DNA of 36,855 nucleotides from Omnitrophica WOR_2 bacterium RIFCSPHIGHO2_02_FULL_48_11 (lineage in GTDB: Bacteria > Omnitrophota > Gorgyraeia > Zapsychrales > GWA2-47-8), in assembly GCA_001805615.1 (NCBI GenBank), contig MHGP01000013.1, positions 1 to 36,855 on the forward strand, given 5' to 3'. A model generated the notes under the pieces. It had not been told where the DNA came from. It made no database searches and saw only the letters and a program-made list of their open reading frames with translations. Below are positions 26,520 through 27,319 of the stretch, piece by piece; the stretch's first letter is position 1; each line of letters begins with the position of its first letter. The translations under genes were made by a program, and so were the position numbers.

Positions 26520-26822
26520 TCATTTCAAAAACTCCTCGGCTTTCAAAGCCCCGCTGATCCGGGCATAATCGTCATAATCCACCAAAGTGATGTAGGGATG
26601 GGATTCCTGCAGTTTCTGGACCTTCGGAAGATGCTGTTTCACGTTCCGGAAGGCGACGTATTTGAAATCGGTCTGGCACGACGGGCAGCGGAACACCTCG
26701 AACTTGATGTCCAGCTGCTTGCATTTCGAACAACTCGCCGACAGATCGCCGTAGATCAGCAGATGATCCCGGATGTCGTGAATATCCAATTTCTGATAAA
26801 CCCGGATAAATTTCTCCTGCAT
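26520..26822 (-). CDS. Small zinc-ribbon protein, unknown
   Basis: 100 residues from the ATG at 26822. The upstream in-frame ATG at 26864 overlaps a TATAAT, so it cannot be the start if that is the promoter. CSKC (about 32-35) and CPSC (about 45-48) form a zinc ribbon; the remainder is helical with HLPKVQKLQESHPYI. SD: AGGAG touches the ATG, GGGGA is further up. It is the first gene of the long minus-strand operon toward trpB, and the first gene downstream of the orphan riboswitch. Role unknown. Confidence 0.65.
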   Translation of the reverse strand: MQEKFIRVYQKLDIHDIRDHLLIYGDLSASCSKCKQLDIKFEVFRCPSCQTDFKYVAFRNVKQHLPKVQKLQESHPYITLVDYDDYARISGALKAEEFLK

Positions 26823-27087: not shown

Positions 27088-27134
27088 AAAAAAGAAGAGC
27101 CGATAAAGACAGGGATTTATCCCCATCGCTCTTC
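27088..27134 (-). terminator. Riboswitch expression-platform terminator
   Basis: On the minus strand GAAGAGC (27128-27134) pairs with GCTCTTC (27094-27100), GAT with ATC, and GGG with CCC inside, followed by TTTTTT (27088-27093). CTTTATCGG in its 3' half (27100-27108) is also complementary to CCGATAAAG at the start of the aptamer (27273-27281), giving an alternative fold. Confidence 0.75.
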
Positions 27135-27285
27135 GGCAACCCAGCCGCCCTATTGTCTCTATTCCCACCAGTTAGTCATTTTATGCCCACCCCACGGGGG
27201 GTTGAGGGCCTTCCCGGTTTTGCGACAACGTAGGCCTGTTGGCTTTGTGTCCCCGGGTTTCCCCGGGTTTACCTTTATCGGCTTG
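27131..27285 (-). ncRNA. c-di-GMP-I (GEMM-I) riboswitch-like aptamer with enlarged P3
   Basis: On the minus strand the GEMM-I elements occur in order: GGTAAACC (27266-27273), a CGGG/CCCG stem with a GAAA tetraloop (27258-27261), GGGGACACAAAGCC, GGCCTACG (27229-27236), P3 pairing TTGTC with GACAA (27224-27228 / 27153-27157) and GGCTGGGTTGCC at the 3' end (27135 on). The P3 loop holds a 66-nt insertion. The base equal to Vc2 G20 is G (27272), which points to c-di-GMP rather than cGAMP. A promoter starts the RNA exactly here and an intrinsic terminator ends it. Confidence 0.8.
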
Positions 27286-27290
27286 TTTTA

Positions 27291-27319
27291 AATATATCAC
27301 ATATTATGCCTTGCGGCAA
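27291..27319 (-). promoter_or_regulatory. Promoter of the GEMM-I riboswitch transcript
   Basis: On the minus strand TTGCCG (27314-27319) and TATATT (27291-27296) are 17 bp apart. The start falls at about 27285, immediately before the aptamer. Confidence 0.6.

Follow-up and report, generated by a model that had tools for sequence, protein, structure and literature searches.

The reverse strand of the window (the whole 36,855-nt stretch of an Omnitrophota contig analysed here) encodes what is probably a self-contained gene for a c-di-GMP-responsive small RNA, a reading to which we give a probability of roughly 0.6 from sequence comparison. The unit runs from a promoter (27319-27291) through a GEMM-I aptamer with a GAAA tetraloop to a terminator whose U-run ends at 27088, as an initial annotation of the locus had described it. 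As expected of an independent sRNA gene, promoter and terminator are conserved along with the RNA. The annotation had left three options for the unit: a free ligand-responsive sRNA, action on a distant zinc-ribbon operon, or a leftover after loss of a target gene. The first is the best supported, given that 54 of 81 genomes of the order carry the unit, as do other families of the class, and that it stands before unrelated or convergent genes.

Rfam cmscan of the window, the search that the annotation had proposed, returned a single gathering-level match: the c-di-GMP-I aptamer (GEMM-I, RF01051) at 27283-27132 on the reverse strand, full length, with 64.9 bits against a cut-off of 35 (E = 1.2e-10). 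The aptamer exceeds the usual length because 68 nt are inserted in its P3 arm (27229-27152), which consists of a GUUGUC/GACAAU stem and inner stems; the P2 hairpin (27267-27252) with its GAAA tetraloop, GGGGACACAAAGCC and GGGUUGCCGAA are all retained. The length of the P3 arm differs among genomes, and large inserts are apparently tolerated at more than one aptamer position. Some units (L232, L237 and L241) have an additional arm inserted at the P2/P3 junction, after GGAC. The c-di-GMP-I-GGC variant (RF03167) was considered and rejected, since it scores 56.1 bits against a gathering threshold of 59 and the window has CAAA, not the consensus CGAA, at A47.

Nine units were aligned, and the order was searched with a covariance model of the whole unit (about 190 nt). 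The 54 genomes score at least 88 bits, nearly always with one copy, and the next matches reach at most 69 bits, which leaves a clear score gap between whole-unit matches and ordinary GEMM-I. The host genome has seven c-di-GMP-I aptamers in all; the other six are of the ordinary kind, and the best other match listed for the whole-unit model scores 39.4 bits. Two ordinary c-di-GMP-I aptamers (L004 and L007; G000:C41:39087-39178 and 39894-39986) are separated by 0.8 kb, and behind each of them lies a type IV pilin-like gene. Whole-unit matches also occur elsewhere in the same Omnitrophota class, with lower scores. In a phylum sample of 384 genomes, 169 have a match at E <= 1e-12, a threshold that also lets in some ordinary aptamers, and the strong matches fall in the unit's own order and class. 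The pattern AGCCGATAAAGGYAAAC matches GTDB contigs of many unrelated bacteria; when 80 of these AGCCGATAAAGGYAAAC loci were run against the model, strong scores appeared in records titled Omnitrophota. Named GTDB records with strong matches are likewise titled Candidatus Omnitrophota or Omnitrophica, and matches labelled Clostridia (L123, L176 and L110) resemble ordinary GEMM-I aptamers that lack the closing 3' strand. This conservation in many other genomes had escaped the initial annotation.

Features were compared in 88 units, 53 from the order and 35 from the class. The ligand contacts G20/G21 (the GG at unit positions 11-12) are intact in 87 of them and A47 in 86; G20 and A47 follow the c-di-GMP-I structure numbering, in which A20 denotes the c-AMP-GMP variant. 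The binding pocket of the window copy appears intact, and its predicted ligand is c-di-GMP. Signalling by c-di-GMP is likely in the host, since its genome has six GGDEF matches.

The promoter consists of a -35 element TTGCCG (27319-27314), a 17-nt spacer, and TG with a -10 element TATATT (27296-27291), with transcription predicted to start at 27283. A promoter scan of the window alone is weak (4 sites against 2.2 expected in shuffles). By the criterion of TTG at -35 and TAnnnT at -10 with a spacing of 16-18, a -35/-10 pair is present in 86 of the 88 units, compared with 2.4 in shuffled sequence and 1.3% of random positions, and it is this conservation that takes the promoter beyond chance. The promoters of these 86 units are positioned such that the start is AGCCGAUAAAGG, at AGCCGAU.

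The 5' strand of the aptamer's P1, AGCCGAUAAAG (27283-27273), is also the predicted 5' end of the RNA, and it is the perfect complement over 11 bp of CUUUAUCGGCU (27108-27098), which bears out the earlier observation that the 3' half of the terminator complements the aptamer 5' strand. The 3' strand of this closing helix runs directly into the U-tract, which places the aptamer inside the closing/terminator helix. Positions 2-9 of the 5' strand are at least 97% identical across the 88 units, and the cells of the helix are 96.6% paired in both alignments. For the structure as a whole, 92.4% (order) and 94.4% (class) of cells are paired as against at most 49% in slid controls, pair counts that lean towards the model structure because the alignments were fitted to the nine-unit model. 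Two-sided changes occupy 124 (order) and 210 (class) cells, compared with 38 and 67 in shuffles, and none of 500 shuffles and no slid version scores as well as the whole structure. Compensatory changes are also found in the P2 hairpin and the P3 stem. In the closing helix, the class set has two-sided changes at pairs 1, 2 and 10; in the order set the helix is nearly invariant and its changes are one-sided.

The first terminator (27134-27088) can be drawn either as a local GAAGAGCGAU...AUCGGCUCUUC hairpin or as the closing helix, in both cases followed by the U-tract. A terminator-like hairpin lies at 27128-27101, ahead of a U-rich run that includes UUUUUU at 27093-27088, and at least five T within 8 nt follow the helix 3' strand in 63 of the 88 units. 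Within a further 130 nt, a second hairpin terminator is present in 40 of 53 order units and 23 of 35 class units (63 of 88 in total), as against 4.0 and 3.1 (about 7 in total) expected from dinucleotide shuffles. None was detected in 13 order and 12 class units, the window among them; in the window copy the local first terminator is stronger, and the second was perhaps displaced by a dispersed repeat. At the 3' hairpin, a hidden short ORF (GAGGUGAUG in L251) was considered and dropped, as it is not conserved.

What defines a riboswitch is that it controls the gene that follows it. In the window the next start codon lies at 26822, more than 260 bp beyond the RNA and behind a TATAAT of its own (26868-26863), just as the initial annotation had it; it belongs to a gene for a 100-aa zinc-ribbon protein (26822-26520, reverse strand) that is conserved in the order (48 of 54 related genomes). 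An ordinary cis attenuator, in which c-di-GMP would favour termination at 27088 and its absence would permit read-through into the zinc-ribbon/M20 peptidase operon, would account for the overlap of the terminator 3' strand with the aptamer's 5' partner, as is classic for attenuators. It would also suit the at least 26 genomes in which the unit and the zinc-ribbon gene share contig and strand and the unit lies upstream, sometimes by 50-230 nt. We nevertheless regard this explanation as doubtful, because the distance in those genomes can be as short as 50 nt or as long as about 13 kb, the genes that follow come from many unrelated families or are convergent, the second terminator in 63 of 88 units would stop read-through, and in the window itself a repeat separates the unit from a zinc-ribbon gene with a TATAAT of its own. 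Unusually long c-di-GMP-I matches precede the zinc-ribbon gene in several families, and in G012 the unit is on the strand opposite to it. Units in trp clusters are read in the order trpC-trpF-(exonuclease)-RNA-...-zinc ribbon-M20 peptidase; their first 12 nt are nearly identical and their 3' strands identical, and the genes that intervene before the zinc ribbon differ.

A consistent position upstream of one kind of gene, in the same orientation, separates riboswitches from other ncRNAs (PMC7266159), and the units depart from this pattern, with next genes that are unrelated or convergent and distances of up to 13 kb. Many genomes have a co-directional gene within 250 nt of the unit. The next co-directional gene within 400 nt is YkgJ-like in 11 order and 2 class units, a zinc ribbon in 10, RsmE-like in 4, a large secreted protein in 4, a DAHP synthase in 2 and GH1 glycosidase-like in 14 (class), with many singletons and no such gene in 25 units; these family names come mostly from reading the sequences, and few were checked with Pfam. 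Among 28 ordinary c-di-GMP-I loci in related genomes, which served as a control, 27 have a co-directional next ORF and two have two terminators. Convergent genes are more frequent at the units than at ordinary GEMM-I loci, but this is no more than suggestive, as the convergent count comes from few clades, and the argument against a constant target therefore leans on the variety of genes, the second terminators and the lone units. Action on the zinc-ribbon operon, as the initial annotation envisaged, is thus possible where that gene lies within about 225 nt and fails as a general function.

Much of the gap between the RNA and the zinc-ribbon gene is filled by a copy of a dispersed repeat of about 114 nt (27080-26968, reverse strand), directly 3' of the RNA and outside it, which had also gone unnoticed before. 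A repeat search found about 12 copies in the host genome at 79-91% identity (L332-L342), and the element is multicopy in two relatives as well (G001 and G005). It starts with GACCTTTGTACAAC and ends with GGAAAAGACCAGTA, and three copies carry a 66-nt extra arm. Its interleaved inverted repeats, in which TACTGG/CCAGTA changes to TATTGG/CCAATA with both sides in step, suggest a pseudoknot; the element has no Rfam match. Another dispersed repeat, about 185 nt long (27600-27395, reverse strand), lies upstream of the RNA promoter, with at least seven copies in the host genome and a palindrome, ACCACGGCTAAAGCCGTGG, that we take to be reminiscent of IS200/IS605 or REP ends. These flanking repeats explain the long gap in the host genome, and we found no intact gene directly behind the RNA cut off here by an assembly gap. 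That the RNA is the evolutionary remnant of a riboswitch with a lost target, as the 260 bp without a gene in the window might suggest, is hardly credible: the unit is strongly conserved across families with promoter, pocket and closing helix intact, and the relatives share no common lost target.

On the upstream side, trpF or an exonuclease gene is the nearest gene in 33 of 53 order units. In the host genome the exonuclease gene and the RNA are separated by a gene for a 1071-aa subtilase whose C-terminal part is rich in cysteine (30807-27592, reverse strand); other relatives have large secreted proteins on the opposite flank of the RNA. Six of the sampled class units (L249, L250, L252, L255, L288 and L289) have the RNA alone between a divergent gene and a convergent REC-GGDEF-MshEN gene, at a distance of -26 to 72 nt, possibly a c-di-GMP feedback or antisense arrangement. 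The RNA could accordingly be pictured as a regulatory 3' element of the trpF/exonuclease operon, or in some clades as a c-di-GMP-responsive antisense RNA of a kind already known among riboswitches (PMC9943018). Either role is very unlikely for the unit at large, which has its own promoter in 86 of 88 cases, whose upstream gene differs by clade and can be on the opposite strand, and whose convergent layout is confined to few lineages.

Under the preferred reading of a self-contained sRNA gene, the promoter would yield a free RNA of about 190 nt, a c-di-GMP-I aptamer with an enlarged P3 arm whose 5' end closes on the 3' end in an 11-bp helix directly before the terminator U-tract, and the shape of this RNA would be set by c-di-GMP. 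Bound ligand would stabilize the closed form and hide both ends. Without ligand, UCGGC of the terminator 3' strand could pair with the aptamer's own GCCGA (27137-27133), which contains ligand-binding bases; the binding site would be broken and the conserved 5' end AGCCGAUAAAG exposed, available to another partner, be it an mRNA or a protein. Both GCCG and CGGC are found in 75 of 88 units. By computed energies the closed and open forms of the window RNA are only 0.7 kcal/mol apart, and a two-state switch is plausible in this copy; over 78 units the median advantage of the closed helix over the open form is 6.5 kcal/mol, which makes a ligand-driven equilibrium switch uncertain in general.

What the exposed end might pair with was sought by seed. 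Exact CTTTATCGGCT sites, complementary to the 5' end, are few outside the unit and only slightly above a reversed-pattern control, and this search yielded no target in trans. Neither Hfq nor CsrA was found in 28 related genomes, leaving a chaperone-dependent sRNA route without a known helper; an Hfq-type sRNA and a CsrA decoy acting through GGA motifs were rejected as candidates on the same grounds. An abundant structured RNA with no base-pairing target, serving as a c-di-GMP buffer or protein decoy, would be consistent with a single-copy, very stable closed RNA with an intact pocket, with the lack of target sites and of Hfq in these searches, and with the precedent of Rli55, a riboswitch RNA that sequesters a protein (PMC8079631). 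Such a role would require high abundance, and one candidate partner, CsrA, was not found in the 28 genomes; we consider it rather improbable. More specifically than a self-contained sRNA gene, we tentatively propose, with odds somewhat against it, a lineage-wide, trans-acting c-di-GMP-sensing sRNA, in which each genome would have one independently transcribed receptor with distant targets, independent of Hfq and with a ligand-gated 5' end.

The c-di-GMP-I aptamer thus appears here as the core of a gene of its own, which different families of a largely uncultured phylum have retained beside changing neighbours. Action in trans would make this RNA a receptor that senses a major second messenger and operates in the manner of an sRNA, as only a few riboswitches are known to do. 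A literature search confined to published papers, with subscription journals covered in part, found no paper mentioning both Omnitrophota and riboswitches; the aptamer is a member of a known family, and its stand-alone arrangement is apparently new. The window unit has the same aptamer core, ligand-contact positions and tetraloop as the RF01051 family, and differs from it in the large P3 insert, the placement of the aptamer inside the terminator/closing helix, its own promoter and the absence of a constant downstream gene. In Clostridioides difficile, no coding sequence follows five of the class I riboswitches (Cdi-1-4, -5, -6, -7 and -10), for which the authors suggest either no function or one beyond cis regulation (PMC6200980). 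These too are c-di-GMP-I RNAs without a gene behind them, but they are several copies in one species, whereas the Omnitrophota have one unit per genome across families with a common architecture, a concrete gene with which to ask how orphan c-di-GMP-I RNAs function. The convergent layout of antisense-acting riboswitches, which are transcribed towards a neighbouring gene (PMC9943018), matches the six sampled units of one class clade and not the window or most units. The HMP-PP (thiS) riboswitch likewise has its aptamer within an intrinsic terminator stem (PMC6478431), as in the Omnitrophota unit, but that aptamer is very small and acts in cis on thiamin genes. Listeria SreA (SAM) and Rli55 (B12) are riboswitch RNAs that act in trans, by base pairing and protein sequestration, respectively (PMC8079631); they bind other ligands, SreA also controls its own operon, and their trans action was shown by experiment, whereas that of the Omnitrophota RNA is predicted.
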